This document shows positions 23,450-45,026 of a stretch of DNA of 64,000 nucleotides, piece by piece (the first letter of the stretch is position 1; every line of letters begins with the position of its first letter). The notes beneath the pieces are model-generated. The model had not been told where the DNA came from, ran no database searches, and saw nothing but the letters and a program-made list of their open reading frames with translations. Source of the DNA: Siderastrea siderea (taxonomy: Eukaryota > Cnidaria > Anthozoa > Scleractinia > Rhizangiidae); assembly GCA_964030785.1 (NCBI GenBank), contig OZ034971.1, positions 14,211,679 to 14,275,678 of the forward strand, read 5' to 3'. Position numbers and translations under genes: made by a program.

Positions 23450-23670
23450 GAGACCTTTTGACCCGCTTTGCAATTTATATAGTTATTTATTTGGATGTTT
23501 TTATTTGTCTATCTCTTTTTTTTTATTTAATGTAATTGCTTTATACGTCGTTGATTTTTTATCTACTGGTTCTTTTTGTTAATATGTGTATAGTACTCTT
23601 GTAATTGCTTATCTATTATATTGTAACCTTTTTTGTGTTCTTTAATAAATTACATTAAAAAAAAAAAAAA
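22370..23670 (+). mobile_element. 5'-truncated LINE with poly(A), inserted in the CHAT domain
   Basis: A 1.3-kb insertion carries the 3' end of a non-LTR retrotransposon ORF2, a 3' UTR with AATAAA at 23644-23649 and a poly(A) tail at 23657-23670, between perfect 17-bp target duplications. The coding part (to the stop at 23449) has no frameshift or stop over about 360 codons, so the insertion is recent. Truncation at the 5' end, the tail and a target duplication of 10-20 bp are typical of target-primed reverse transcription. Confidence 0.95.
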
Positions 23671-24058
23671 ATCTGGGGTACCTAGCGAGGAAGACTTCCT
23701 TTTAACAATGACAGACGTGTTAAGTGCTCAGATAAGAGCAAGACTAGTTGTGTTGAGTTGCTGTCATAGTGCTCGTGGGGAAATGAAGGCTGAGGGTGTG
23801 GTTGGCATATCAAGGGCATTTTTGGGTGCCGGTGCTCGGTCTGTTTTGGTGTCACTGTGGGCGATTGATGATGAAGCCACTTTGGAGTTCATGAAAGTTT
23901 TCTACCTTTACCTGAAGAAAGGAAAAAGTGTCAGCGAATCTCTGAACCAAGCCATGAAATGCATGAGAGAATCTGACCAGTTTAGTGCAGTGAAGTACTG
24001 GGCTCCGTTTGTACTTATTGGTGATGACGTCACCCTGGAGTTTGGTGAACACAAATAA
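23671..24058 (+). pseudogene. CHAT protease domain, second half with the catalytic-type Cys
   Basis: After the second target duplication the host frame resumes with EEDFLLTM and continues to [12 protein letters not shown], the block with the presumed catalytic cysteine, then [19 protein letters not shown], a hallmark of CHAT domains, and ends with [11 protein letters not shown] just before the stop at 24056-24058. The insertion therefore separates the catalytic His and Cys, so this allele cannot make an intact protease. A polyadenylation signal AATAAA lies at 24738-24743, preceded by about 680 bases of probable 3' UTR. Confidence 0.9.
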
Positions 24059-25046: not shown

Positions 25047-26205
25047 CACAGGACACCCAAGCATAACGTTTGAATATTATTAAAAATGGCGTTTCAAAAT
25101 ATAAGACTTTGTATGGGATTTCGAAGCGAACATTTTGAGCAATACATAACAGCAAACTAACTGAATAAAGTTCATGAAACATTACATGGTGTTGTTTGCT
25201 ATCCTAACAACGCATTTTGAGCAATTTTAGGTCTATTTACCTTACTGTGTATTAGTACATGTATAATACATTGACAAGGAAGGAGTCATTTGGCCCGATT
25301 TAGCCACTATCACCGCTCGACACGTTTCGGAATTCGCTCGAATTTACCCACAAATCTAGTTCAGGCTCCCATTCTGACTTAGCGACTTGACAAAAGGAAG
25401 ACATACAAGTGATTTTCTCAAAACCAGTTGCACATACCTCGTGTCCCAAAAGAATTATCCACTGCACAAAATCGTAATAGCATCTCAAAATAGGCCTCCA
25501 TGGATCGGTGAGGATCCCGATAGCCCCGTTTGACCGCGGTCGGCACTGGACACCAGTCAAATCATGCCCTTATCGGGAGGGCCACGCTCGTTTTGGTCGT
25601 GTTACAATTGTAGTAACTATGACCCGGTACGGACACAAAATTGTCGCTCCAACGTAGTCTGGTTCGCGTGAGAAAATCGTGTTACAAGCGGATAGCAAAA
25701 ATAAATCATTCCCATTTCTGAGTTTATATCCATTTTCAGGGTGTATATTTTCTTGTTTTTTTAATAAGTAGGTTACCTGACCGGCTTCATGCAAATATAG
25801 AAGTAGTTATATACTTGGGGGTACGAAAGCATTTTTTCAAAATGCTTTCTTACCAATCCCAAGTATTAACTACTTTCCATCTGATGGTAATATTTTATGG
25901 AAAACTATATGTTTTTTTATTTTTTGGTATCGAACACATGGCTCCATCACATGGCTTTATCACATGGCTCCATCACGGCAATAGAATCCTCGGCATGACA
26001 AAGTATTTGATTGGCTTGCGTTAGCAAGACATTCAAAGACGAAGTCACGGGGATGGAGGATTCGTCATTGCAAAAGGCGCCTTGGTGGGAAGAGCTCGAA
26101 GAGCGATGGGCGCCTTATTATGTGATGGTATTATGTGATGGTATTATTTGACGGTATTATTTTATGGAAAACTATATGTTTTTTTTTCATGGCGCCATTT
26201 TTTAT

Positions 26206-26292
26206 GCATTGGGGAACAAAAGCGGAGCTTTTGTGAGGCAGTGAATTGATCGCAAAGCGATCAAGAGGGGAAGTTTCTTTTTGCGATGCTGG
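26206..26292. repeat. 87-bp double-hairpin repeat, copy 1
   Basis: The 87-bp unit from gcattgggga to gatgctgg contains two perfect 8-bp stems with 3-nt loops. It is repeated directly at 26517-26603, just inside the left TIR. The right side has only the TIR copy, near 43099-43185. Confidence 0.9.
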
Positions 26293-26345
26293 TTTCATTT
26301 TATGGTTTCCTCTGGGAGGTATAAAAAGCATTTTCACATGTTGGT

Positions 26346-26444
26346 AGGAGCCGAGCAGGCTCGGGAAGTCGTCACTTTAGTGACGAGTGAGGCTCCTTTC
26401 AGCCTACAGTGGGTAGAGACGTAGTCTCGTAGGGCACTGTAGGC
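26346..26444. repeat. Two branched hairpins at the inner end of the TIR
   Basis: First structure: aggag at 26346-26350 pairs with ctcct at 26393-26397. It encloses two arms, ccgag/ctcgg (26351-26355 with 26360-26364) and tcgtcac/gtgacga (26369-26375 with 26380-26386). Second structure: gcctacagtg (26402-26411) pairs with cactgtaggc (26435-26444) and encloses gagac/gtctc (26416-26428). The same structures appear inverted at about 42950-43048. They resemble branched terminal hairpins in shape only; a role in replication or packaging is a guess. Confidence 0.8.
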
Positions 26445-26516
26445 AACATGGTTCCAGATCATTTTTATTTCATGTGGAAACGAACGCATTTTTATATATG
26501 CTAGATCCATATTTTC

Positions 26517-26603
26517 GCATTGGGGAACAAAAGCGGAGCTTTTGTGAGGCAGTGAATTGATCGCAAAGCGATCAAGAGGGGAAGTTTCTTTTTGCGATGC
26601 TGG
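26517..26603. repeat. 87-bp double-hairpin repeat, copy 2
   Basis: Direct repeat of 26206-26292 lying outside the left TIR, overlapping the 3' end of the gene at 26572-27156. It has no counterpart just inside the right TIR, so it probably arose by a local duplication or a TIR boundary shift. Confidence 0.85.
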
Positions 26604-27156
26604 TATTATTTTTTGGAAAAAATAATTGAAAACCGTTATATTGGTCGTATTTTTTTAATAATTTGCTAAATTCAGAAGAGTATGCATCATATCCATATTG
26701 GTTGTTAGTTAATATACTTAAAATATATTGTCTTTCGCTTTTATCGAACGGATTGCTATCATATGATTTGTATTTATTGATTGTACCGTTACGGTTTCTG
26801 AATTCGACTTTCTTATATTTGTGATAATATTTGTCCAAAAATCCGTGAAAGTGAATTTTATAAATTTTTATAGTTTTTGTACTGTTATCATTGTAATTAA
26901 TGGTTTTTAACATTTCTATTTCTATTTCTTTATATTCGGTTTCAGATTCATCGTTTTCATTCATATTACCTCTGTAAGTGTTTGATCTTTTTTCGTCAAT
27001 TGTACCATCAGGGTGTATGTATTCAACCATCTTCCATCTGAAATTTGGTGTTTTCTCATTACCAGCGTAATATTTTAAAATATGAATTTTTTTTGTACAT
27101 CCATCATCATAATGAATATTTATTGTCATTTTTACTTCTCGGGTTGCGATTTTCAT
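26572..27156 (-). CDS. Unrecognised Polinton protein, 194 aa
   Basis: I do not recognise this protein. It is hydrophilic, rich in Lys, Tyr, Asn and Asp, with no signal peptide or membrane segment. Its first 120 residues look like two or three related beta-rich blocks, each of the form I-x-YxDG/N-S/C-TKKIxI (residues about 11-25 and 88-102). The last dozen residues are encoded by the 87-bp hairpin repeat, so the original C-terminus may have been replaced. The start is supported by a TATATATAT stretch touching the ATG (27157-27169), the motif seen at most genes of the element. It is the gene closest to the left TIR. Confidence 0.65.
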   Translation of the reverse strand: MKIATREVKMTINIHYDDGCTKKIHILKYYAGNEKTPNFRWKMVEYIHPDGTIDEKRSNTYRGNMNENDESETEYKEIEIEMLKTINYNDNSTKTIKIYKIHFHGFLDKYYHKYKKVEFRNRNGTINKYKSYDSNPFDKSERQYILSILTNNQYGYDAYSSEFSKLLKKYDQYNGFQLFFPKNNTSIAKRNFPS

Positions 27157-27214: not shown

Positions 27215-27778
27215 ATGAATTGTAACAAGGAATTACATGATGAACTGAAAGAATCAGGAGATATTGTTTGTCCTTTTTGTGACCAAAAATTGGAAGATTC
27301 TAATGAAAAACCGAAATATGATGAATGCTGTGATAATCAGTATATTATTAATGACGATGGGATGTTAGCCTGTCTAAGTTGTGGTATTGTTCAAGGATAT
27401 AATTATGTGAAAGAATATGTTAATTTTTATGAAAATAGACATAAATTTATTAGAAAATCTGTTTACCATCGAGAGTACCACATTAGCAACATATTACTCG
27501 ATATTGAAGAAAAATATAACATTAAAATATCAAACTGTCAGAAATATAAGATCGATAGAGTGTTTACAGAGATCGGTAAGGTTCTTAATGAAGTTAATGG
27601 AACTAGGAAAAGGATGATTAGCGTAAATTTCATTATGAGAAAGATATTCAAGATGATGGGAATACCTTACAAAAATATTCCAATTAGTAAATCGAAAAAA
27701 ACTTTAGCTTTTTATAATAAATATTGGGCTAGTATTATGTCTCTAATCGGTGATAAAATAAAATCTATTATTGGATGA
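27215..27778 (+). CDS. VLTF3-like zinc-ribbon late transcription factor, 187 aa
   Basis: The N-terminal third has a zinc-ribbon pattern: CPFC at residues 19-22, then ACLSCGIVQG near 52-61, plus a further CC pair. Next comes a YHREYHISNILLDIEE segment and a helical C-terminal region. This order of ribbon, Y-x-R-x2-H motif and helical domain fits the VLTF3/A2-like family of late-gene transcription factors known from poxviruses and other large DNA viruses. I assign it by pattern, without a search. It would act in transcription of late (virion) genes. It is the only plus-strand gene in the left block and overlaps the 3' end of the neighbouring minus-strand gene by 11 bases. A weaker AT motif (ataatagtataga) precedes the ATG. 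A generic TFIIB-type ribbon protein is the alternative. Confidence 0.65.
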   Translation: MNCNKELHDELKESGDIVCPFCDQKLEDSNEKPKYDECCDNQYIINDDGMLACLSCGIVQGYNYVKEYVNFYENRHKFIRKSVYHREYHISNILLDIEEKYNIKISNCQKYKIDRVFTEIGKVLNEVNGTRKRMISVNFIMRKIFKMMGIPYKNIPISKSKKTLAFYNKYWASIMSLIGDKIKSIIG

Positions 27779-33170: not shown

Positions 33171-33269
33171 AATGTTATTAAAAAGTGAGTTTTATCCAAT
33201 TATAAATAGACTAGCAAGTGGGAAATGGTTTATATAAAAAGTGAATTTTATCTAAACTATCAATATATA

Positions 33270-34559
33270 ATGAGTTTCAGAACAAGTGATAATTTACAAA
33301 GATATGAATACGTTCATTTCCATTTGGACAATGTCATTGAGCAACCTGCTAACAATCAATCACAGAAAAAGACGGGTTACAGATTCACAATCAACGATAG
33401 GTCGACTATGTTCGATTTTTTTAATGGGTATTTCGAAGTAACTAAAGAGCTTCAAAAAAGGGCAGATGGTACTGGATATGCTCAAGCAGATCGCATCACC
33501 ATGATAAACGGATCTTCTAGTTTGATCAAACATATGGTTATTAAATCGTCTGGTAAAATAGTATACGAGAGTGATAATTTACATAGAATTACGAATGTTA
33601 AAAATTTACTCGAATATAGTGATGATTTTAGTAGATCCGTTGGAAAGAATTCGTTCTGGTATCTTGATACTGACAGAACTACAGCAGATACAAACACAGG
33701 TTTCGAAGCCCGTCGCATTTTAACCCAGGCTAATCAGAATAACGGCGGCGGAGGAGCTAAATCGAATAACGAGATGATACCGTTGAACCGATACAGTTTT
33801 TTCCAAAAATTAGAAAAAAAAATGTTGCCCCCAATGCAGCTCGCATTTGAACTTACACTTAACGAAGACAGTGAAATGATTCACATGGCAAACGGCACAG
33901 ACGCTGGTCGTGTTGTAGTAAAGAGATTGTATCTTTGGCTCCCAAGATTAATTCCAAAAGACAGCATGTATAGTAATTTCGTTTCAGAGTTTCTCAAGCC
34001 AACAACCTGGACATATATGCGAGATCTCTACAATCAGTCAGCAAATACCAGAGCTATTCAGAATATGTTTCAAATCAGTCCAGCTATCGACGACGTTAAA
34101 CATGTTTTTATATATCTCCAGCGGACAGATGCACCGAATGATGATGAAGCAGAGAGGAGTCCGTATTTGTTTGACACTTTCAAGTTGAATGCTGCTGACG
34201 CTAATAGCTCTCTCTCGAGTTGTCGTTTAGAATATGGAAACAACACGTTCTATCCCGAACTAGAATACGATGCAGATTCTAAAATCAGGATATTCAATGA
34301 TCTCATGAGTTATGCATTTCGTAAAAACGATTACAATTCTGGGACACAACTTAATGTATCTAATTTTAGTAGTTTGTACGGATTAATATATTTCGATTTG
34401 ACATATCAAAAAGAGGTAGTGACGAGAGATCCTAAACAGTTGATTCTCCATTATCGTTTGAATGTTGCCCCAGCTGCTAACGTCCGAGCCCATAGTATCG
34501 TATTTTACGAGAGTGAGGTTGTTGTTAAGACAGTTGGAAACGAATTGATGATAGTTTAA
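33270..34559 (+). CDS. Major capsid protein, double jelly-roll, 429 aa
   Basis: The length, the all-beta character and the position after the minor capsid gene fit the Polinton hexon-like double jelly-roll protein. Segments such as YRFTINDRSTMFDFFNGYFEV near the N-terminus and PKQLILHYRLNVAP near the C-terminus look like jelly-roll strands. It would build the icosahedral shell. The frame is open upstream to 33225, but the ATG at 33270 is chosen because AATATATAATG matches the start motif used throughout the element and gives an N-terminus of normal length. No break is visible. Confidence 0.85.
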   Translation: MSFRTSDNLQRYEYVHFHLDNVIEQPANNQSQKKTGYRFTINDRSTMFDFFNGYFEVTKELQKRADGTGYAQADRITMINGSSSLIKHMVIKSSGKIVYESDNLHRITNVKNLLEYSDDFSRSVGKNSFWYLDTDRTTADTNTGFEARRILTQANQNNGGGGAKSNNEMIPLNRYSFFQKLEKKMLPPMQLAFELTLNEDSEMIHMANGTDAGRVVVKRLYLWLPRLIPKDSMYSNFVSEFLKPTTWTYMRDLYNQSANTRAIQNMFQISPAIDDVKHVFIYLQRTDAPNDDEAERSPYLFDTFKLNAADANSSLSSCRLEYGNNTFYPELEYDADSKIRIFNDLMSYAFRKNDYNSGTQLNVSNFSSLYGLIYFDLTYQKEVVTRDPKQLILHYRLNVAPAANVRAHSIVFYESEVVVKTVGNELMIV

Positions 34560-34633: not shown

Positions 34634-35479
34634 ATGACACAACTATACGAAATCAAAGTTAGTTTATCACCAAACCAGAAAAAGAATCTTAGTAACGCGT
34701 ATCATAAAAGAGAAACTATCGTTTTGAGACTGACAAAGGATTCATTATCTGGGAATGACACTCTATACGTACCTCAGAATATAGTTAAGCGATTGGATAA
34801 AAATAGAAAATTGAAAAAGGGAATGGACATCAAACTAGCAAAAACAAACATTCGAAAGCAAGTTGGTGGATCACTCCTCTCTACAGTTTTGAATCTGGGA
34901 CGAACTTTTGCTCCCACTATTGCTAAGACTCTTGGATTGTCGGCTTTAGCTGGAGCAGCTAGTGAAGGAGCATCTCAGATCATCAAAAAGATATCTGGAA
35001 AAGGAATTCAAACTGGTGGGTTTCTCATACCACAAAATAAAATCGACCAGTTGATAGCATATAAACATCTTTTGACCACAAAACAAAAGAAGGATATATT
35101 AAATGCTCTACAAACCGGTTCTGGTGTTCATATAAAACCAACAAAAGTACAAACAGGTGGGTTCTTAGGTACTCTTCTCGCATCAATTGGAGTCCCTTTA
35201 GCTATTGAGGCAATAAAAAAGATGACTGGTAAAGGTGCCCCTCAGATGGGACAGCCTAAACAAAGACCACCCAGATCTATACCAAGTACTGCTAACAATC
35301 AAGATGGTGGTTTGTTAGTTCCGATGTATAGAACTCCACCTTTTTATGGAAATTGGCCGAACGATACAATCGGTATGGGAATTAAAAAAAAAAGAAAAGC
35401 TCAGAAAAAGGGCGAAGGTCTACTATTAGGCAAGAACTCACCCTTCAAAAACGTCCCACTGTTAAACATTCTGTTGTAA
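34634..35479 (+). CDS. Minor virion/core protein with Gly-Gly processing sites, 281 aa
   Basis: After a basic N-terminal domain of about 80 residues the protein has glycine-rich hydrophobic modules (VGGSLLSTVLNLGRTFAPTI near 77, TGGFLGTLLASIGVPLAIE near 180) separated by sites that look like adenain targets (ISGKG, MTGKG, VGG, TGG). The tail is basic and proline-rich. Such modules suggest a precursor cut into small core or membrane-active peptides (inference). ATATATAATATG precedes the start. Near the 3' end, the codons at 35384-35392 are AAA AAA AAA, which gives an in-frame A AAA AAA heptamer. The protease frame opens there in -1. Confidence 0.7.
   Translation: MTQLYEIKVSLSPNQKKNLSNAYHKRETIVLRLTKDSLSGNDTLYVPQNIVKRLDKNRKLKKGMDIKLAKTNIRKQVGGSLLSTVLNLGRTFAPTIAKTLGLSALAGAASEGASQIIKKISGKGIQTGGFLIPQNKIDQLIAYKHLLTTKQKKDILNALQTGSGVHIKPTKVQTGGFLGTLLASIGVPLAIEAIKKMTGKGAPQMGQPKQRPPRSIPSTANNQDGGLLVPMYRTPPFYGNWPNDTIGMGIKKKRKAQKKGEGLLLGKNSPFKNVPLLNILL
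35386..35392 (+). promoter_or_regulatory. Candidate -1 ribosomal frameshift site 1 (A AAA AAA)
   Basis: The heptamer is in the zero frame of the minor virion protein, 85 bases before its stop. The protease frame (-1) has a TAA at 35383-35385 and opens exactly here. No strong downstream stem is seen: only a 5-bp pairing of gaagg (35414-35418) with ccttc (35442-35446). The A10 run could also allow transcriptional slippage, or mark an assembly indel. Confidence 0.55.
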
Positions 35480-35937
35480 AACCCGAATTCCATAAGAATG
35501 TCCCATTAAGTAATTATGATTTAATAAAATGGTGTAAATATCTGAATATCCCAATTAATGATGTATTGTCAAGAGATGAAAATGTTCCTCACAATCATAG
35601 ACAGGCTCTATTCATTTACAATCTTGAACCGAGTTATATGTCAGGGAGTCATTGGGTGGCTACTTATGTTAAGGACAAAGTCCTCAATTACTTTGATAGC
35701 TTTGGTTTGCCTCCCTTCCAAGAAATGGTCAATCACGCGAGAAAAAAGAATTTAACATTGCTTCATCAGAACAATCAAATACAAAATTTACTGACGACAA
35801 CATGCGGTTACTTCTGTTTATACTTTTTGAATGAGATGAATAAGGGTAAATCATATTTTGATCTGTTGGAAGTTTTCGACATATACGATACGACGAATAA
35901 TGAGAGGTTTCTAGAACGGTATTTCAAAAATATGTAA
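35386..35937 (+). CDS. Adenain-type cysteine protease, reached by -1 frameshift
   Basis: The catalytic order His-Asp-Gln-Cys of the adenovirus protease family is present: His in SHWVATY (codon 35650), Asp in YFDSFG (35695), Gln in the NNQIQN region and Cys in TTTCGYFC (35803). It would cut virion precursors during maturation. The frame is open from 35386 to the stop at 35935-35937, and conserved-looking sequence (WCKYLNIPI near 35530-35556) lies upstream of any ATG. No ATG in frame precedes the domain, and no TATA-ATG motif is present. The simplest reading is expression as a -1 extension of the preceding virion protein. A lost start codon is the alternative. Confidence 0.85.
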   Translation, partial: KKKKSSEKGRRSTIRQELTLQKRPTVKHSVVKPEFHKNVPLSNYDLIKWCKYLNIPINDVLSRDENVPHNHRQALFIYNLEPSYMSGSHWVATYVKDKVLNYFDSFGLPPFQEMVNHARKKNLTLLHQNNQIQNLLTTTCGYFCLYFLNEMNKGKSYFDLLEVFDIYDTTNNERFLERYFKNM

Positions 35938-35948
35938 TCAAGTTATAT

Positions 35949-36350
35949 ATGAAATCTTATTGCGTGAAACAAAAAAGGGTCACAGAATGTGTACCTGGGA
36001 GTGAACGATATGTGAGAGCCAAAAATGGGAGGCTTATGCTTAAATGTATTTGTGGTGAATGTGGTATTACTAAGACTAAATTCGTCAAAAGTCAAAAAGG
36101 AGGTGAAAATCCATTAGGTAAAGCTTTTGAGGCAGCCAAAATAGCCGAACAAATAACTCGCAAAGTAATTCCATCAACCAACCATGTATTTGACCGATAT
36201 TGGTCTGGTGATATCTTAAAAGGTGCTTTCACAGCACCAACAGGTATAACAAGCAAGAAATTCTGGACTAAACCAAAGAAGGGTACTGTCATGCGTTTGG
36301 TGAAAAATCCAAAAACTGGTAAATATGAGAACGTATATATTGAACCTTAA
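35949..36350 (+). CDS. DUF5679-like zinc-ribbon virion protein, 133 aa
   Basis: The N-terminal 47 residues (MKSYCVKQK, AKNGRLMLKC, GECGITKTKFVK) resemble the DUF5679-type ribbon, although one Cys of the first pair is replaced by Gln. The rest is basic, with a helix KAFEAAKIAEQITRKVIP and a C-terminal VMRLVKNPKTGKYENVYIEP. The same N-terminus recurs at 36372, so one gene is a duplicate of the other's first module. GTTATATATG forms the start. The function is unknown; a DNA- or capsid-binding role is a guess. The TATATATG start right after the protease stop shows that it is expressed independently. Confidence 0.65.
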   Translation: MKSYCVKQKRVTECVPGSERYVRAKNGRLMLKCICGECGITKTKFVKSQKGGENPLGKAFEAAKIAEQITRKVIPSTNHVFDRYWSGDILKGAFTAPTGITSKKFWTKPKKGTVMRLVKNPKTGKYENVYIEP

Positions 36351-36371
36351 TCTAATCTAATCATATTATAT

Positions 36372-36557
36372 ATGAAATCTTATTGCGTGAAACAAAAGAT
36401 GGTCACAGAATGTGTGCCTGGGAGTGAACGATATGAAAAGGCTAAAAATGGGAGGCTTATGCTTAAATGTAAATGCTCTGAATGTGGAATAACTAAGACT
36501 AAATTCGTTAAACAGGCGGGAAACGGGCTAGCCCGTCGAAAGGGGCGGGCTTACTAG
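36372..36557 (+). CDS. DUF5679-like zinc-ribbon module, zero frame of the PLA2 gene
   Basis: A 61-residue frame starts at ATTATATATG and repeats the first 47 residues of the protein at 35949 with few changes, then ends after a short basic tail (stop 36555-36557). Near its end, codons GCG GGA AAC give an in-frame G GGA AAC heptamer (36518-36524). The PLA2 frame lies in -1 and opens at 36512. I infer that this frame is the N-terminal module of a longer product. If frameshifting does not occur, a free 61-residue ribbon protein would be made as well. Confidence 0.7.
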   Translation: MKSYCVKQKMVTECVPGSERYEKAKNGRLMLKCKCSECGITKTKFVKQAGNGLARRKGRAY

Positions 36558-37219
36558 ATACAGTAGCATCAACTGGTACTGATTTATTGATTCACCACGG
36601 TATTCCTTGGTTGGGAAAAAAGGCTGTTGAAATGGGTCGATATTATGGATCAGAAGCCTTGAGAAACCCAAAACTGCAGAAAAAGGCTATCGATTATGCT
36701 CTGGATAAGTTGAATCCAATGATTCAAAATGTCGGAAGTCAAGCTCTTGATCAATTATCAACCAAAATAAGACCAAATAGAAAGTATAAAACTGACAGGA
36801 AGGATTTGGATGGTGGTAGTTTAGATATCCATAAACTAATTGGTAAATTACCAAGACCAAAAGCTGGATTCACTCCAGGTAAGTATAAATATTTAGGTCC
36901 GTATAATCCGCTGGAAGAGCAGCTGCAGTACGATAAAAATACTGGCAAGGTGACCAAATGGAATGTAAAACCTCTCAACAAGGTCGATGAAATAGCAGCT
37001 CATCATGATATTTGTTATGACATGGGGAAAAACAAGGTTGAATGTGACAAACAAATGGTCAAGTCATTGGATGAAATACCTTATGGACAAATGCCAAAAT
37101 GGGGACAAACAGCACGATTTCTAATCAACACGAAGCAGAAACTGGGTCTTGGTGTAAAACAAAGGAAGACAAAAAACCTGAAAAGCCGTCGAGTGAAGAA
37201 AACTGGCAAGAAAAATTAG
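36512..37219 (+). CDS. Phospholipase A2-domain virion protein, reached by -1 frameshift
   Basis: The frame opens after a TAA at 36509-36511 and has no ATG until well inside the conserved N-terminal helix (HHGIPWLGKKAVEMG). The PLA2 part has a calcium-loop pattern YLGPYNPL near 36889-36912 and the catalytic pair in AAHHDICYD (His-Asp codons 37004-37009), followed by ECDKQM. This is the compact secreted-PLA2-like fold also used by parvovirus capsids to leave the endosome; the same role is inferred here. The tail is strongly basic. Codons ACA AAA AAC near the end give an A AAA AAC heptamer (37171-37177) in frame, 42 bases before the stop. Confidence 0.75.
   Translation, partial: TGGKRASPSKGAGLLDTVASTGTDLLIHHGIPWLGKKAVEMGRYYGSEALRNPKLQKKAIDYALDKLNPMIQNVGSQALDQLSTKIRPNRKYKTDRKDLDGGSLDIHKLIGKLPRPKAGFTPGKYKYLGPYNPLEEQLQYDKNTGKVTKWNVKPLNKVDEIAAHHDICYDMGKNKVECDKQMVKSLDEIPYGQMPKWGQTARFLINTKQKLGLGVKQRKTKNLKSRRVKKTGKKN
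36518..36524 (+). promoter_or_regulatory. Candidate -1 ribosomal frameshift site 2 (G GGA AAC) with stem-loop
   Basis: The heptamer is correctly phased in the zero frame. After a 5-nt spacer, agcccg (36530-36535) pairs with cgggct (36546-36551) around a 10-nt loop. This is a GC-rich stem in an otherwise AT-rich element, with the spacing used by retroviral frameshift signals. The same heptamer is used at known retroviral gag-pro junctions. Confidence 0.65.
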
Positions 37220-38136
37220 CTGATGAGCTTCATAAACCGATAAAGCGTAACTTCACCCGGCGGCGGGTAATTGTAAACCATATTGACGAGACATGGTGTT
37301 CAGATATCGTTGAGATGCAAAAATTCAGTCGATGGAACGCTGGCTACAGATATCTTCTTATGGTACTTGAGGTATTCTCTAAATACGGTTGGATAGTTCC
37401 ATTAAAAGATAAAAAGGGTGAAACCGTTATGAATGCTTTTAAAACAATATTCAAAGAGGGGCGTAAACCACAATATCTTTGGACAGACAAAGGCAAGGAG
37501 TATTACAACAAACATGTTAAAGAACTACTTGATAAGAATAAAATAACCTTATACTCAACCGAAAATGAGGAAAAATCTAGTGTTTGTGAAAGATGGAACC
37601 GTACAATCAAAACCAAAATGTGGAAGCAGTTTACTGTTCAAGGTAATACAAAGTATTTAGACATGCTACCCAAATTAGTGAAACAGTATAACAACACCAG
37701 ACATTCAAGCATAAAGATGACGCCTACAGAAGCCGGTAAAAGGAAGAATCAAGGAACTGTTTACTTTAATCTGTATGGTGATATGGAGCAAGTATCATCT
37801 AAACCGAAATTCAAAATAGGTGATAAGGTTAGAATAAGTAAGTATAAACGAAATGTGTTTGATAAGGGCTATACACCGAATTGGTCTGAGGAAATTTTTA
37901 CAGTTGATGAAATACAACATACAAACCCAATCACATACAAACTAAAGGATCTCAGAGGTGAAGATATTCAAGGGAGTTTTTATGAACCTGAATTATTAAA
38001 AGCTAAACAGGAGGTATTCCGTATCGACAAAGTTATTAGGAGAGATTACAAGAAGAAACAAGCTTTAGTCAAATGGAAGGGATATAGTGATGACTTCAAC
38101 AGTTGGATTCCGTTAAAGGACTTGAAGGATATATAA
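37099..38136 (+). CDS. Retroviral-type integrase with C-terminal chromodomain, up to 345 aa
   Basis: Counting from the ATG at 37099, the catalytic triad is Asp69 (WCSDIVEM), Asp130 (LWTDKGKEYY) and Glu164 (SSVCERWNRT). A beta-barrel-like region follows (FKIGDKVRISKYKRNVFDKGY), then a chromodomain at about 300-345 (IDKVIRRDYKKKQALVKWKGY, SWIPLKDL). It inserts the element into the genome and makes the 6-bp duplication; the chromodomain may steer it to marked chromatin. The first 120 bases overlap the PLA2 frame. The protein may start at 37099 or be made as a -1 fusion through the heptamer at 37171. Confidence 0.9.
   Translation: MGTNSTISNQHEAETGSWCKTKEDKKPEKPSSEENWQEKLADELHKPIKRNFTRRRVIVNHIDETWCSDIVEMQKFSRWNAGYRYLLMVLEVFSKYGWIVPLKDKKGETVMNAFKTIFKEGRKPQYLWTDKGKEYYNKHVKELLDKNKITLYSTENEEKSSVCERWNRTIKTKMWKQFTVQGNTKYLDMLPKLVKQYNNTRHSSIKMTPTEAGKRKNQGTVYFNLYGDMEQVSSKPKFKIGDKVRISKYKRNVFDKGYTPNWSEEIFTVDEIQHTNPITYKLKDLRGEDIQGSFYEPELLKAKQEVFRIDKVIRRDYKKKQALVKWKGYSDDFNSWIPLKDLKDI
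37171..37177 (+). promoter_or_regulatory. Candidate -1 ribosomal frameshift site 3 (A AAA AAC)
   Basis: The heptamer is in the PLA2 frame; the integrase frame is -1 and enters its conserved N-terminal region a few codons later. Downstream pairing is weak: gtgaag (37193-37198) with cttcac (37251-37256). An ATG in the integrase frame at 37099 offers an alternative start, but it lacks the TATA-like motif and lies inside the PLA2 tail. Confidence 0.5.
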
Positions 38137-38502: not shown

Positions 38503-38733
38503 ATGGAAAATCAGAATGTTAAGAGAGGTCGAGGTAGACCACCAAAATATTCAACTGAAGAAGAGAGGAAGGATGCTTTAAGACGACAAAAATCGAAGTA
38601 CATGCTAGACAAAGAATGGTATTGTGATATTTGTAAAACAGGTCGTAACTATACACTGGCTGGCAAGCATTGTCATTTGAAGACGATAAAGCACCAAAAA
38701 ATAGCATTGCATCAATATCATGGAGAAAAATAA
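38503..38733 (+). CDS. AT-hook and zinc-finger protein, 76 aa
   Basis: The N-terminus has an AT-hook (KRGRGRPPKY at residues 7-16), then a basic linker, then a finger WYCDICKTGRNY with downstream His residues (GKHCHLKTIKH). The AT-hook should bind the minor groove of AT-rich DNA, which fits the AT-rich start motifs and composition of the element; a regulatory role is inferred. The start is set by TATTATATATG, and the upstream 40 bases are almost pure TA. Confidence 0.7.
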   Translation: MENQNVKRGRGRPPKYSTEEERKDALRRQKSKYMLDKEWYCDICKTGRNYTLAGKHCHLKTIKHQKIALHQYHGEK

Positions 38734-38876: not shown

Positions 38877-41800
38877 ATGAAATCAGAAAAATCTAATTAT
38901 ATAAATATGGATAAAGCTAGTTTGAAGAAACTAAGCAAATCGAAACTTATCAAATTACTTATGAAGCAGGAGAAGAAGCCAGTTCCAGCACCAAGGAGGC
39001 CAATACCAACACCTCGCAAGAGTGTCAAACAGATGGCTAAAGAATATGAAGAAAACATCATTCTTCCACCTCCAGAATTCAGGAATGATTACAAACCCAT
39101 TCCAACACCAAGGAGTAAAAAACCAGTTCCAACACCAAGAACCATAATAAAACAAACAGACAAAGCTTTAAAAGATTTCACTAAGTCATTTGAAATTGGC
39201 ATTAAAAACAATAAAGACCCCTTACCCCAAATGCAAAACACAAGAAAAGCAATAGAACATCGTTTAATAACTTTGTTGAATGAAATGAAAGGCTTGAAAT
39301 ACCTTGAAACATTGAAAGTCACATTTAGCAAAATGTCTGATGGTGAAAAAGTGATTAAAACTGCATATTTCAACAGTAAAGCCCAAACAATAATCAACCA
39401 AATGGAAATCAATGAAGAATTACAAATGTCTAAACAAAATATCTTAAACCTGATCTCCCAGTGGATATCAGAAGGATCTGGTTGGACAATCCAATCTGTT
39501 GATAGCCATTACCTCAACATTGTCAAATACAAGCCAATGAATGGATCCTCATATATCCAACTGCCTTCTGAACTGCGAAATAGTGCTAAGGGACTAATTA
39601 ACATGAAAAATGAGGATAATGAATGTTTCAGATGGTGTCATATCCGACACTTAAACCCACAAGAAAAATATCCTCAAAGGATTAAAAAAGTCGATAAACC
39701 ATACATTGAAAAGTTAGATTACTCAAACATTGATTTTCCAGTCAGTGTCAAACATTACAACAAAATTGAGAAGCAAAACAGTATTAATATAAGTGTATTC
39801 GGGTACGAAAACAAAGAGCCATATCCCATCTATGTTTCCAAAGAAAAGTATGAAGATCATATGGAACTACTTCTGATAACAAAAAATGAAAACAAGCATT
39901 ATGTTCTGATAAAGGATTTCAACAAATTCATGTATAACCAAACAAAACACAAAGAGAGGAAACACTTTTGTATGTGGTGTCTGCAACGTTTCAGTTCAGA
40001 CAGGGTTTTAAACAATCATAAAGACATTTGCATTCAAGTGAACGGCACCCAAGCAATTAAAATGCCAGACAAAGACAATAACATACTGAAATTCAACAAC
40101 TTCCATAAGCAACAACCTGTACCATTTGTCATCTATGCTGATTTTGAGGCTATAACTGAAAAGATACAAAGATGTCAACAGAAGGGTAACAAATCATACA
40201 CAGAAGCATACCAAAGACACACAGACTGTGGATATGGTTACAAGGTTATCTGCTGTTATGACGACAAATATACAAAACCAATACAAATATATAGAGGCGA
40301 AAAGGCTGTTTATAAATTCATGGAAAACATGTTAGAAGAAGTGAAATACTGCAAAAAAGTAACGAAAAAACATTTCAATAAACCATTGAGAATGACAAAA
40401 GAGAATGAACATGAATTTGAAAAAGCAAAAGAATGCCACATATGCGACAAAAAATATACTGAGAAAGACATTCGAGTGAGAGATCATTGCCATATTACTG
40501 GTAAATACAGAGGCTCAGCTCACCAAGAATGCAATCTGAAACTCAGAATAAATCCAGAAGAAATAAAAATTCCTGTTATATTCCATAATTTGAGAGGTTA
40601 TGACAGTCATTTCATTATGCAAGAAATTGGAGCTATTGTCAAGAATAATACATACAAAAATAAGAATGGAGAGGAGAAACAAATGAATATCAATGCTATT
40701 CCAACTAATATGGAAAAGTATATGGCTTTCATGCTTGGCAACCATCTGAAATTCATCGACAGTTTCCAATTCATGAGTTCAAGTTTGGATAAATTAGTGA
40801 GCAACTTACCAGCAGAAGCTTTGAAATATACAAACAAAAGATTCCAAAAAGAAAAATTCAATCTTATGACGCGAAAAGGTATTTATCCGTATGATTACAT
40901 GGACAGTTTTGAGAAATTCAATAAAACAGAATTGCCAACTAAACAAGAATTTTACAGCATATTGAATAATGAGCATATAACAAATGAGGATTATTGTCAT
41001 GCTCAGAAAGTGTGGAATACATTTCAATTACAAACTATGGGTGAATACCACAATCTATATCTTAAGTCTGATATACTTCTATTAGCCGACGTGTTTGAAA
41101 ACTTCCGCAAAACCTGTTTACAATTCTACAAACTCGACCCATGCCACTATTTCACATCACCCGGTTTGTCCTGGGACGCTATGTTGAAAATGACTGATAT
41201 TCAACTAGAACTAATGACAGACATAGATATGTTTCAATTCATTGAAAAAGGTATGCGTGGTGGTATATCTTATATAGCAAATCGACATGGTAAAGCGAAT
41301 AACAAGTACATGAGTAAATATGATAAGAATAAGCCGTCAAAATACATTATGTATCTTGATGCTAATAATTTATACGGTTGGGCTATGAGCCAATATCTCC
41401 CAACTGGTGGTTTCAAATGGATGACAGAAAAGCAGATTAATAAAATCAATTTAGCTCAGTATAATGAAGACAGTAATAAAGGATTGATACTGGAAGTTGA
41501 TCTCGAATATCCTAAAGAGTTGCATGACCTTCATAACGACTACCCATTAGCCGCTGAGAGGGTTTGTGTAAATAAAGATATGCTGTCTGATTATTGTAAA
41601 AAAATTGCTACAAAATATAATATATCAACAGGACTGGTACATAAATTAATTCCTACATTAAGCAACAAAGAAAAATATGTTCTGCATTACAGAAACCTGC
41701 AGCTGTATCTTGATCTTGGATTGAAAGTAAACAAAGTCCATCGAGTATTAAAATTCAATCAGTCACCTTGGCTCAAACAATACATACAATTCAATACTCA

Positions 41801-42614
41801 AAAACGTACTCAAGCAAAAAATTCATTCGAAAAAGACTTTTTCAAACTCATGAATAACTCAGTATTTGGTAAAACTATGGAAAATGTAAGAAAACGTGTT
41901 GATGTCAGACTTATCACAGATGAAAAGAAACTATTGAAAATGGTAAGTAAACCAACTTATGTATGCAGTAAAATCTTCAACGAAAATTTGGTGGCAGTGC
42001 ATAAAATAAAGGAAACGCTCACTTTAAACAGGCCGGCATATGTTGGAATGTGTATCCTTGATCTGAGCAAAACATTAATGTATGATTTCCATTATAACTA
42101 CATAAAAGAAAAGTATAATAACAAAGCCAAATTATTATTCACAGACACAGACTCATTAACATATGAAATCGAAGCCGAAGACGTCTACAGAGACTTTTGG
42201 AATGACAAAGATCGATTTGACAACAGCGACTATCCAGAAAACTCTCCATATTTCGATAAGACAAACAAGAAAGTAATTGGTAAATTCAAGGATGAAGCTT
42301 GCGGTATCCCAATAACAGAATTCGTTGATTTGAGATCAAAAATGTACAGTTACATCAAAGACAATTATAAAGGTGAAAAAACAGCCAAAGGAATCAAAAA
42401 AAATATAATAAAGAACAAAATCAAACATACAAACTACAAAAAAGTTTTATTTAAAAATAAACAAATACATCACACAATGAAAACCATTCGAAGCAGCAAA
42501 CATCTAATAGGAAGTTATGAAATAAACAAAGTATCACTAAGCTGCTTCGATGACAAAAGATATATATTGACTGACGGAAAACAAAGTTTAGCTTATGGTC
42601 ATTACAAATTATAA
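38877..42614 (+). CDS. Protein-primed family B DNA polymerase (pPolB), 1245 aa
   Basis: Exonuclease motifs: YADFE (Asp422, Glu424), HNLRGYDSH (570-578) and YLKSDILLLADVF near 730. Polymerase motifs: YLDANNLYGWAM (Asp828), NNSVFGK (993-999) and FTDTDS (Asp1090, Asp1092). Zinc clusters lie at about 365-385 (CMWC) and 522-560 (CHIC, DHCHIT, HQECN). All catalytic residues are present and there is no break, so the gene looks functional. It replicates the element from a protein primer at the TIR ends. The N-terminal 100 residues hold four (V/I)P(T/A)PR repeats of unknown role. TATATAATG marks the start. Confidence 0.95.
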   Translation: MKSEKSNYINMDKASLKKLSKSKLIKLLMKQEKKPVPAPRRPIPTPRKSVKQMAKEYEENIILPPPEFRNDYKPIPTPRSKKPVPTPRTIIKQTDKALKDFTKSFEIGIKNNKDPLPQMQNTRKAIEHRLITLLNEMKGLKYLETLKVTFSKMSDGEKVIKTAYFNSKAQTIINQMEINEELQMSKQNILNLISQWISEGSGWTIQSVDSHYLNIVKYKPMNGSSYIQLPSELRNSAKGLINMKNEDNECFRWCHIRHLNPQEKYPQRIKKVDKPYIEKLDYSNIDFPVSVKHYNKIEKQNSINISVFGYENKEPYPIYVSKEKYEDHMELLLITKNENKHYVLIKDFNKFMYNQTKHKERKHFCMWCLQRFSSDRVLNNHKDICIQVNGTQAIKMPDKDNNILKFNNFHKQQPVPFVIYADFEAITEKIQRCQQKGNKSYTEAYQRHTDCGYGYKVICCYDDKYTKPIQIYRGEKAVYKFMENMLEEVKYCKKVTKKHFNKPLRMTKENEHEFEKAKECHICDKKYTEKDIRVRDHCHITGKYRGSAHQECNLKLRINPEEIKIPVIFHNLRGYDSHFIMQEIGAIVKNNTYKNKNGEEKQMNINAIPTNMEKYMAFMLGNHLKFIDSFQFMSSSLDKLVSNLPAEALKYTNKRFQKEKFNLMTRKGIYPYDYMDSFEKFNKTELPTKQEFYSILNNEHITNEDYCHAQKVWNTFQLQTMGEYHNLYLKSDILLLADVFENFRKTCLQFYKLDPCHYFTSPGLSWDAMLKMTDIQLELMTDIDMFQFIEKGMRGGISYIANRHGKANNKYMSKYDKNKPSKYIMYLDANNLYGWAMSQYLPTGGFKWMTEKQINKINLAQYNEDSNKGLILEVDLEYPKELHDLHNDYPLAAERVCVNKDMLSDYCKKIATKYNISTGLVHKLIPTLSNKEKYVLHYRNLQLYLDLGLKVNKVHRVLKFNQSPWLKQYIQFNTQKRTQAKNSFEKDFFKLMNNSVFGKTMENVRKRVDVRLITDEKKLLKMVSKPTYVCSKIFNENLVAVHKIKETLTLNRPAYVGMCILDLSKTLMYDFHYNYIKEKYNNKAKLLFTDTDSLTYEIEAEDVYRDFWNDKDRFDNSDYPENSPYFDKTNKKVIGKFKDEACGIPITEFVDLRSKMYSYIKDNYKGEKTAKGIKKNIIKNKIKHTNYKKVLFKNKQIHHTMKTIRSSKHLIGSYEINKVSLSCFDDKRYILTDGKQSLAYGHYKL

Positions 42615-42919: not shown

Positions 42920-45026
42920 CATGAAATAAAAATGATCTGGAACCATGTTGCCCACAGTGCCCTACGAGACTACGTCTCTCCCCACTGTAGGCTGAAAGGA
43001 GCCTCACTCGTCACTAAAGTGACGACTACCCGAGCCTGCTCGGCTCCTACCAACATGTGAAAATGCTTTTTATACCTCCCAGAGGAAACCATAAAATGAA
43101 ACCAGCATCGCAAAAAGAAACTTCCCCTCTTGATCGCTTTGCGATCAATTCACTGCCTCACAAAAGCTCCGCTTTTGTTCCCCAATGCATAAAAAATGGC
43201 GCCATGAAAAAAAAACATATAGTTTTCCATAAAATAATACCGTCAAATAATACCATCACATAATACCATCACATAATAAGGCGCCCATCGCTCTTCGAGC
43301 TCTTCCCACCAAGGCGCCTTTTGCAATGACGAATCCTCCATCCCCGTGACTTCGTCTTTGAATGTCTTGCTAACGCAAGCCAATCAAATACTTTGTCATG
43401 CCGAGGATTCTATTGCCGTGATGGAGCCATGTGATAAAGCCATGTGATGGAGCCATGTGTTCGATACCAAAAAATAAAAAAACATATAGTTTTCCATAAA
43501 ATATTACCATCAGATGGAAAGTAGTTAATACTTGGGATTGGTAAGAAAGCATTTTGAAAAAATGCTTTCGTACCCCCAAGTATATAACTACTTATAGAAA
43601 TAGATATTGTATATACAATTATAACATAAAATAATACCGTCAAATAATACCATCACATAATACCATCACATAATAAGGCGCCCATCGCTCTTCGAGCTCT
43701 TCCCACCAAGGCGCCTTTTGCAATGACGAATCCTCCATCCCCGTGACTTCGTCTTTGAATGTCTTGCTAACGCAAGCCAATCAAATACTTTGTCATGCCG
43801 AGGATTCTATTGCCGTGATGGAGCCATGTGATAAAGCCATGTGATGGAGCCATGTGTTCGATACCAAAAAATAAAAAAACATATAGTTTTCCATAAAATA
43901 TTACCATCAGATGGAAAGTAGTTAATACTTGGGATTGGTAAGAAAGCATTTTGAAAAAATGCTTTCGTACCCCCAAGTATATAACTACTTATAGAAATAG
44001 ATATTGTATATACAATTATAACAATTTTAAAATAAAACATTTTCACGCGCGTGAGGATATGAATTTAAATGAATTTGCCGACTTCGGTTCGAAAAAATAT
44101 ACCTCAGTGGTATATAAAACCTATCGAGGATTCCAAAAAATTGAACACATTCAATTCACGCAGAGTACGTATTTAAAATTAACGCAGTAGACTGACCTGT
44201 ATTACAAACGTTTTGTACATCAACGCAAATATGTTCAATTTACCACGCATGAATAGAAATATAGGAGGAGGGAGAAACACGGTTCACTTTCTCTTTTTCT
44301 TGACTCGTTTTCATTTTCTAACGGCCAAGACCGTTTTAATTTCTTTCGATAACTTAATTCTCTCCATAAGGTCACGGAGTCCCGCGCAGCGATTCCACCA
44401 TTCTCGCGCGAACCAGACTACATTGGAGCGACAATTTTGTGTCCGTACCGGGTCATAGTTACTACAATTGTAACACGACCAAAACGAGCGTGGCCCTCCC
44501 CATAAGGGCATGATTTGACTGGTGTCCAGTGCCGACCGCGGTCAAACGGGGCTATCGGGATCCTCACGGATCCATGACGGCCTATTTTGAGATGCTATTA
44601 TGATTTTGTGCAGTGGATAATTCTTTTGGGACACGAGGTATGTGCAATTGGTTTTGAGAAAATCACTTGTATGTCTTCCTTTTGTCAAGTCGCTAAGTCA
44701 GAATGGGAGCCTGAACTATATTTGTGGGTAAATTCGAGCGAATTCCGAAACGTGTCGAGCGGTGACAGTGGCTAAATCGGGCCAAATGACTCCTTCCTTG
44801 TCAATGTATTATACACGTACTAACACAGTTAAGTAAATGGACCTAAAATTGCCCAAAATACTTTGTAAGGATAGCAAACAACACCATGTAATGTTTCATG
44901 AACTTAATTCAGTTAGTTCGTTGTTATGTATCGCTCAAAATGTTCGCTTCGAAATCCCATACAAAGACTTATATTTTGAAACGCCATTTTTAATGATATT
45001 CAAATATTATGCTTGGGCTTCCTATG
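42920..45026. repeat. Right terminal inverted repeat of the Polinton
   Basis: Inverted match to 25047-26474, but about 680 bp longer because of a 397-bp tandem duplication (43228-43624 and 43625-44021) and an unmatched stretch at about 44022-44401. The inner end starts exactly where the left one stops (catgaaataaaaatgatctg at 42920). The branched hairpins and the 87-bp double-hairpin unit are conserved here. Confidence 0.9.
43228..44021. repeat. 397-bp tandem duplication inside the right TIR
   Basis: Two almost identical units, 43228-43624 and 43625-44021, each run from ataaaataataccgtcaaat to acaattataac. The left TIR holds one unit. Each unit contains the long imperfect palindrome near the sequence gtacccccaagtatataact. 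Confidence 0.9.

Follow-up and report, generated by a model that had tools for sequence, protein, structure and literature searches.

Genes and reading frames at the locus

The stretch described here, positions 34634-38136 of a 64,000-nucleotide window (the whole piece of DNA analysed) from the stony coral Siderastrea siderea, lies within an integrated stony-coral Polinton (Maverick; family Eupolintoviridae) and contains three junctions at which one gene gives way to the next in the -1 reading frame. The element measures at most about 20 kb, with outer ends at about 25047 and 45026, and has terminal inverted repeats (arms at about 25047-26616 and 42920-45026); the repeats at 25248-26616 and 42920-44827 include a block duplicated internally, and one end is therefore not a plain mirror copy of the other. 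Pfam searches found an rve integrase with a C-terminal chromodomain, a Pox_A32-type packaging ATPase (E 6.4e-9) and a Phospholip_A2_4 domain, plus DUF5679-like ribbons below the cut-off. The 1245-amino acid (aa) open reading frame (ORF) at 38877-42614 (+), which we take to be the polymerase from its motifs, has Endonuclease_7 as its sole Pfam match, at E up to 0.1. The ORF at 33270-34559, presumably the double jelly-roll major capsid protein, had no match in Pfam or PHROGs. The genes and sites of the stretch are as follows.

34634..35479, + strand: pX, 281 aa, zero frame of junction 1, with a start motif at 34634
35386..35392, + strand: slip site of junction 1, A AAA AAA, within a run of 10 A
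35386..35937, + strand: PRO, -1 frame, adenain-like cysteine protease (sub-threshold match), without an ATG before codon 84
35949..36350, + strand: ribbon1, a paralogue of ribbon2 in which the ribbon is joined in one frame to another stretch, with its own start motif
36372..36557, + strand: ribbon2, a 61-aa zinc ribbon resembling DUF5679 (sub-threshold Pfam match), which forms the zero frame of junction 2 and has a start motif at 36372
36512..37219, + strand: PLA2, Phospholip_A2_4 (PF08398), 235 codons, -1 of ribbon2 and zero frame of junction 3
36518..36524, + strand: heptamer of junction 2, G GGA AAC
36530..36551, + strand: hairpin of junction 2, a predicted stimulator of 8 base pairs (bp), 36530-36537 with 36544-36551, after a spacer of 5 nucleotides (nt)
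36806..36820, + strand: LDGGS in the PLA2 frame, which fits the adenovirus-protease consensus (M/I/L)XGG|X
37075..38136, + strand: INT, rve core and chromodomain, -1 frame of PLA2
37171..37177, + strand: heptamer of junction 3, A AAA AAC
37185..37198, + strand: 5' arm of the junction 3 stem, 7 nt past the heptamer
37251..37264, + strand: 3' arm of the junction 3 stem, spanning the INT codons F, T, R, R

We use pX, PRO, penton, capsid and polymerase as assumed names, in part taken from an earlier reading of the sequence (the first-pass annotation); pX itself is presumably a virion-type protein. PRO matched Pfam Peptidase_C5 weakly (E=0.028, below the cut-off), and was not identified by PDB sequence, PHROGs or an AlphaFold model (mean pLDDT 48). 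The two ribbons are closely similar, the one fused in frame and the other reached by the putative frameshift, and the copies differ as though modules had been swapped.

The first-pass annotation placed PRO, PLA2 and INT each in the -1 frame of the gene before it and assigned an in-phase X XXY YYZ heptamer to every junction. Our reading agrees on both counts, with A AAA AAA, G GGA AAC and A AAA AAC at junctions 1, 2 and 3. Also as described there, the PRO and PLA2 frames open near the heptamer with no ATG before it, their first ATGs in the window copy being codon 84 and codon 40, respectively. The PRO frame opens straight after the stop at 35383-35385 and the PLA2 frame 6 nt 5' of its heptamer; the INT frame of the window copy has an ATG at 37099, 5' of the heptamer. 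In all three cases, the -1 frame runs without interruption through the heptamer and beyond the zero-frame stop, as in canonical eukaryotic programmed -1 ribosomal frameshifting. A predicted downstream stimulator after a short spacer is present at junctions 2 and 3 and missing from junction 1, and site and structure are conserved among relatives at junctions 2 and 3; junction 1 keeps its A-run only.

Heptamers and stems at the ribbon-PLA2-integrase junctions

To compare copies of the element within the same genome, we used two sets. The close set holds the 40 scored (best) copies of 674 first-look pX candidates, window copy included. The divergent set holds 20 INT copies, hand-chosen to span identity from the 120 listed of 3,581 first-look INT candidates, and these are 82-98% identical to P0042, an integrase from another subfamily. 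Together the sets are a non-random sample. Stems were scored as the best stem beginning 4-10 nt downstream of a position, and 1,629 positions were ranked by this anchored score, the junctions' own neighbours included.

At junction 2, GGGAAAC was found in all 40 close copies and, together with the GC hairpin, in all 20 divergent copies, 18 of which could be read for phase. The -1 relation holds in 38 of 40 close copies and in all 18 of the divergent copies read. Within the close set, the -1 frame reaches the PLA2 domain in 36 copies and is open at the junction and later broken in two (L054, L066). The ribbon frame stops directly after the heptamer in 7 of 40 close and 12 of 18 divergent copies, and some ribbon frames are different or broken at their start, such as that of L033. 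The 8-bp GC hairpin begins 5 nt past the heptamer (the spacer measures 5-7 nt, according to the point chosen as the foot of the stem) and lies in DNA of 36-37% GC. Its fold z is -3.1 over 76 nt, -2.7 over 41 nt and -1.8 over a 111-nt segment around the site, and its anchored stem ranks 12th of 1629. Over the 60 copies, the hairpin belongs to class A in 51, to class B, of different sequence, in seven, and to a loop variant in two; L100 and L101, outside the phase count, carry the heptamer and the hairpin with a variant loop.

Predicted proteins from other assemblies are consistent with this pattern. The -1 peptide [GK]K[RL], the expected coding of GGG AAA C or AAA AAA C, occurs in 51 of the 53 readable cases (of 360; non-independent) among neighbours that vary, although the codons themselves are invisible in proteins. 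In P0005 and P0059, which have a different PLA2 module, ribbon and PLA2 lie in one frame, a sign that a protein joining the two may well be functional.

Junction 3 has AAAAAAC in all 40 close copies, with PLA2 in the zero frame and INT in the -1 frame, in phase, in 40 of 40 close and 20 of 20 divergent copies. The heptamer of the divergent copies is AAAAAAC in 10, TTTAAAC in eight and AAAAAAA in two. INT is open across the junction in every close copy and ends early in at least five of them (L034, L035, L038, L042, L043). The stem of the window copy, in which 13 of 14 positions pair, starts 7 nt past the heptamer and closes a 52-nt loop; it ranks first of the 1629 anchored positions, and segments that include both arms have fold z values of -2.0, -2.3 and -3.0. 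A 14-nt stem after exactly 7 nt recurs in 39 of 40 close copies with varying spacer letters, and the same stem and 7-nt spacer are found in 16 of 20 divergent copies, where the TTTAAAC class keeps both. PLA2 tails from other assemblies end the comparison in the same way: KN is present in 91 of 107 readable tails (of 120), LN in 13 more and neither in three, as expected from the coding of A AAA AAC or T TTA AAC, again with the codons hidden at the protein level.

The first-pass annotation had proposed aligning relatives from other cnidarians to see whether heptamers and -1 relations persist while their flanks drift, and among the copies of this genome they do so at junctions 2 and 3. Mean pairwise difference among close copies is 0 at both heptamers; the ribbon before junction 2 has 0.159, the PLA2 module 0.058, the PLA2 domain 0.129 and the INT body 0.102. 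The 3' arm of the junction 3 stem is no less variable than INT overall (0.117 vs 0.102), and it is the pairing that is kept, not the sequence. Changes in the arms convert U-G to U-A or C-G at pair 5 and G-C to G-U, and one from A-C to A-U repairs a mismatch; the arm pairs of L059 and L063 pair at 12 positions and those of L079 and L084 at 11 of 14. Two INT Arg codons lie within the 3' arm, and these are CGG in 74, CGA in two and AGA in one of 77 cases. Elsewhere in INT, CGG accounts for 82 of 537 Arg codons and AGA for 266. The stem-paired Arg codons are thus rich in CGG and the rest of INT is not, so codon choice here follows the RNA and not a codon habit.

Heptamers as such are not rare. We counted 58 of the form X XXY YYZ in the 4,996 zero-frame slots of the element, and codon resampling gave a probability of about 0.35, 0.15 and 0.48 for any such heptamer in the overlaps of junctions 1, 2 and 3, so we rejected the presence of an in-phase heptamer as significant in itself. 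The particular sequences are more telling: GGGAAAC and AAAAAAC each occur once in those slots, at junctions 2 and 3. The chance of AAAAAAC, GGGAAAC or TTTAAAC is 0.009 in the overlap of junction 2 and 0.05 in that of junction 3; with AAAAAAA allowed as well, the figures for junctions 1 to 3 become 0.11, 0.06 and 0.17. When the element's 58 in-phase heptamers are compared, junctions 3 and 2 have the strongest anchored stems. Sequence, phase, spacing, predicted structure and conservation make programmed -1 frameshifting very probable at both of these junctions.

We also calculated the ratio of nonsynonymous to synonymous polymorphism (pN/pS) among the close copies. It is 0.202 for pX, 0.148 for PRO, 0.219 for ribbon2, 0.219 for PLA2 and 0.139 for INT (37 of 40 copies usable for INT and 40 for the others), and PRO, PLA2 and INT read in the two wrong frames give 1.16-2.53. 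The -1 frames, without starts of their own, are under purifying selection and have therefore been translated. Decayed frames were considered and rejected, given the -1 relation kept in the copies and this purifying selection.

A start motif near most genes of the element is missing from these three frames, as the first-pass annotation had noticed. TATAT or ATATA lies within 14 nt of the ATG at 12 of 15 gene starts taken as ordinary and at none of the three first ATGs of PRO, PLA2 and INT (for the ORF at 33210-34559, the start was taken as ATG 33270, not the first ATG at 33225). A matrix built from the 15 starts places 14 of them within the top 17 of 610 ATGs and the fifteenth (31015) 28th, with a score of 1.9, and between 34660 and 38160 its top two sites are those of ribbon1 (35949) and ribbon2 (36372). 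First ATGs score -9.9 for PRO, -13.6 for PLA2 and -15.6 for INT; the matrix is rough, with leave-one-out scores of the starts from 6.7 to -8.3, and the PRO value is barely under the worst start.

The motif, often TCTAA or CTAAAC and then TATATA, stands directly 5' of the ATGs at 27156 (-), 28256 (-), 30233 (-), 31015, 32019, 32799 and 33270, and likewise at 34634, 35949, 36372, 38170, 38503 and 38877. It resembles a late promoter, from which the leaders would be very short. The ORF at 27215-27778 (+) matches the poxvirus late transcription factor VLTF3 (PF04947, E 1.5e-6, above the cut-off); this may be the element's own late transcription factor and could read the motif.

The pX-protease junction and competing explanations

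Junction 1 is built differently. Its 10-A run is the longest found on the + strand between 27000 and 42614, and the length of the run varies among the 40 close copies. The -1 relation holds in 36 of these: in 35, the pX tail is in frame (two of them, L043 and L062, are broken further upstream in pX), and L037 is -1 with a premature stop. Among the remaining four, an extra A fuses pX and PRO in L039 and L053, and the run is shortened in L050 and L067. Of ten divergent copies taken for this junction, two were readable, L117 and L120, and both are -1, L117 with a stop in the -1 frame; the remaining eight enter no count. The pX C-terminus GLLLGKNSPFKNVPLLNILL is common to many unfused relatives.

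With such a run, a pX-protease fusion could also arise if the polymerase that makes the mRNA slips, rather than the ribosome. Transcriptional slippage of this kind operates as a switch in potyviruses, insertion sequence (IS) elements and others, as the relevant part of PMC5009743 describes, and it would account for the exceptional length of the A-run, the variation in that length and the want of a strong stem. A AAA AAA is nonetheless a legal in-phase -1 heptamer as well, and junctions 2 and 3 look ribosomal. We regard transcriptional slippage as possible though doubtful, and programmed -1 ribosomal frameshifting from pX to PRO as moderately favoured.

Several observations weigh against frameshifting at one or more of the junctions. 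All DNA copies come from one 831-Mb genome, and other assemblies were seen through predicted proteins only. No strong conserved stem was found at junction 1, where the anchored rank is 565 of 1629 and fold z runs from 0.3 to -0.5. Fold z depends on the segment folded, and at junction 3 it is -0.4 and 0.2 with the 3' arm cut off. At that junction, L058, L078 and L082 carry a different, weaker stem and L079 and L084 a partial one, and changes among the 14 distinct arm pairs are mostly one-sided and pairing-preserving, not two-sided covariation. In copies of the L038 type (L038, L040, L108), the predicted minimum at junction 2 is another register. An INT-frame ATG precedes the heptamer in 30 of 40 close copies. 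In L098, L099 and many database ORFs (MWYNKDQ-type), an ATG of the PLA2 frame falls within the ribbon, so the lack of an ATG is not general for PLA2; the database ORFs appear to resemble raw ORF calls, with alternative start codons written as M. Finally, fused relatives exist at each junction, as detailed next.

The fused relatives bring up a plainer account, in which pX-PRO and ribbon-PLA2-INT are ordinary fused polyprotein genes, split here by one-base mutations or assembly errors in A-runs, and the heptamers are incidental. Fused ORFs make up 29 of the best 120 listed pX clusters (of 3,020), and a PLA2 domain is carried by 33 of the best 120 listed INT clusters (of 6,769). Among genome copies, the one-base fusions are the two at junction 1 with an extra A (2 of 40) and L058 and L061 at junction 2 (2 of the 58 copies with phase read); at junction 3, none of 60 is fused. 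The first-pass annotation had named frames simply fused by one-base differences as one finding that would speak against it, and such relatives are indeed found at junctions 1 to 3, in each case as a minority. The -1 state is the rule throughout, and the zero-frame tails of pX and PLA2 are conserved. A decaying junction would not be expected to retain heptamer, phase, spacer and stem amid drifting flanks, nor to exchange one canonical heptamer for another. The database fusions that we compared occur at several different places in the overlap, which fits independent indels. For these reasons, we consider ordinary fused genes a very improbable explanation.

The ATGs noted above could instead serve separate expression of PLA2 and INT, through internal promoters, leaky scanning or reinitiation, with the overlaps reflecting compact packing. 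The PLA2 ATG at codon 40 is upstream of the Pfam domain, which would suit such a start, as would the ATG inside the ribbon of some relatives and the INT ATG of most copies. Against this, the PLA2 and INT ATGs have no start motif, 10 of 40 INT frames have no ATG before the heptamer, and the conserved heptamers, spacers and stems would be left without a reason. Independent starts for PLA2 and INT were rejected on the first two grounds, and we give independent expression very little weight.

Splicing is another way in which mRNAs could join the frames, and one annotated protein, P0070 of Oculina patagonica, does omit the junction stretch in the manner of an intron-bearing gene model. However, intact vertebrate Mavericks are described with intronless ORFs in the section of PMC8097293 that treats them, and splicing does not require in-phase X XXY YYZ heptamers. 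We judge it even less probable than the two preceding accounts.

Proposed expression strategy and its parallels

Overall, we think it likely, with a good margin of confidence, that programmed -1 ribosomal frameshifting operates in this coral Polinton. After initiation at the ribbon2 ATG, ribosomes would encounter G GGA AAC and, past 5 nt, the GC-rich hairpin. Those that stay in the ribbon2 frame would end at once or past a short tail, and a minority would slip to give ribbon-PLA2. A minority of the slipped ribosomes would slip again at A AAA AAC (or U UUA AAC) with its stem, yielding a ribbon-PLA2-integrase protein of about 590 aa. One mRNA from the ribbon2 start could thereby supply a short ribbon, ribbon-PLA2 and ribbon-PLA2-INT. 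As a less supported counterpart, ribosomes on the pX mRNA may slip on the A-run (A AAA AAA) to make a pX-protease fusion of about 434 aa. Fusion of this kind would couple enzymes needed in few copies to plentiful virion-type proteins in a constant proportion.

The two-step scheme was first put forward in the first-pass annotation. Its ribbon-PLA2-integrase part is upheld by conserved heptamers, spacing and stems, and its pX-protease part is plausible but less well backed, the junction having an A-run, no strong stem and some fused copies. The low dose of protease that it also proposed is presumed, because a frameshift rate is unreadable from sequence.

Following translation, the element's putative adenain-like protease might free the PLA2 domain at a conserved LDG-type site. 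LDGGS lies between the inserted module and the PLA2 domain, a place where at least 74 of 110 homologues have a match to the adenovirus-protease consensus. Whereas adenovirus encodes its protease in a separate ORF, the protease frame here has no start of its own. The consensus of the adenovirus enzyme is (M/I/L)XGG|X or (M/I/L)XGX|G in the pertinent passage of PMC4246237, and adenain maturation shares with our element a PRO-like frame (the weak Peptidase_C5 match) and LDGG|S-type sites before the PLA2 domain. Release of PLA2 by the element's protease is, from these motifs, a reasonable guess. The full scheme would have two frameshifts put PLA2 and integrase on a small virion-type ribbon protein and a third slip put the protease on another virion protein, with release by the element's own protease, and the particle would then carry its enzymes for entry and integration in a low, defined proportion; we rate the odds of this complete version as about even.

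Programmed frameshifting typifies retroviruses and a large number of RNA viruses, and betaretrovirus pol includes integrase. In the account given in part of PMC3835772, the betaretroviruses Mason-Pfizer monkey virus (MPMV), simian retrovirus 1 (SRV-1) and mouse mammary tumour virus (MMTV) use GGGAAAC or AAAAAAC and a spacer of about 7 nt in a double -1 frameshift through gag-pro-pol, and the stimulator spacer in -1 frameshifting is typically 6-9 nt. Our junctions share with them the heptamers, the spacer of about 7 nt, the downstream RNA structure and two successive -1 shifts that lead to enzymes. They differ in belonging to a DNA virus-like element with no reverse transcriptase match, in having a small zinc ribbon as the first protein, in combining a short hairpin with a long-range stem, and in the enzyme order PLA2-integrase. 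No reverse transcriptase domain was present in the Pfam matches of 17 scanned ORFs of the element, which works like a Gag-Pro-Pol strategy yet is not a retroelement.

The packaged-enzyme idea is inapplicable to IS elements and phages. These are also mobile DNA that extends a product by frameshifting, as covered in part of PMC5009743, and they differ in being bacterial elements and phages. A further parallel lies in the adintoviruses, for which a section of a 2024 preprint (PMC11071296) suggests possible -1 sites near the 3' end of the penton ORF and something similar for hexon-adenain fusions, using KnotInFrame. They are related Polinton-class viruses with slippery sites near the 3' ends of virion-protein ORFs. 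Their sites concern penton and hexon and come from KnotInFrame prediction, with no comparative test in that section; ours concern ribbon-PLA2-integrase and pX-protease. The first-pass annotation knew of nothing published in Polintons, a statement that needs qualifying for these adintovirus sites, which were put forward from prediction alone. Our search of open-licence literature on Polinton, Maverick or adintovirus frameshifting found this one relevant paper, with reports elsewhere possible; the parts of PMC8097293, PMC10120064 and PMC12567637 that mention frameshifts treat them as mutations, errors or in an RNA virus. The recoding mechanism that we propose is itself known; conservation now supports it in a DNA virus-like element, where it involves PLA2 and integrase. 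A double -1 frameshift in a eukaryotic element of this type, backed by conservation, would mean that Polintons too arrived at this answer to the question of how to dose and package enzymes. Frameshifting also accounts for the way in which ORF callers break up the PLA2, integrase and protease genes of such elements, and the junctions yield short RNAs that are testable in any reporter.

Scans of IMG/VR with the integrase, an integrase alignment, a pX alignment and the ORF at 33270 returned no relative, nor did a scan of bacterial and archaeal genomes. The coral genome itself has a heavy load of such elements, with 674 pX and 3,581 integrase first-look candidates in 831 Mb (40 and 120 scored, respectively). 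Downstream of the stretch, a small ORF at 38503-38733 (+) encodes an AT-hook (PF02178, E 3.8e-4), and in the host flank, 23627-24058 (+) encodes a CHAT domain (PF12770, E 7.6e-33).

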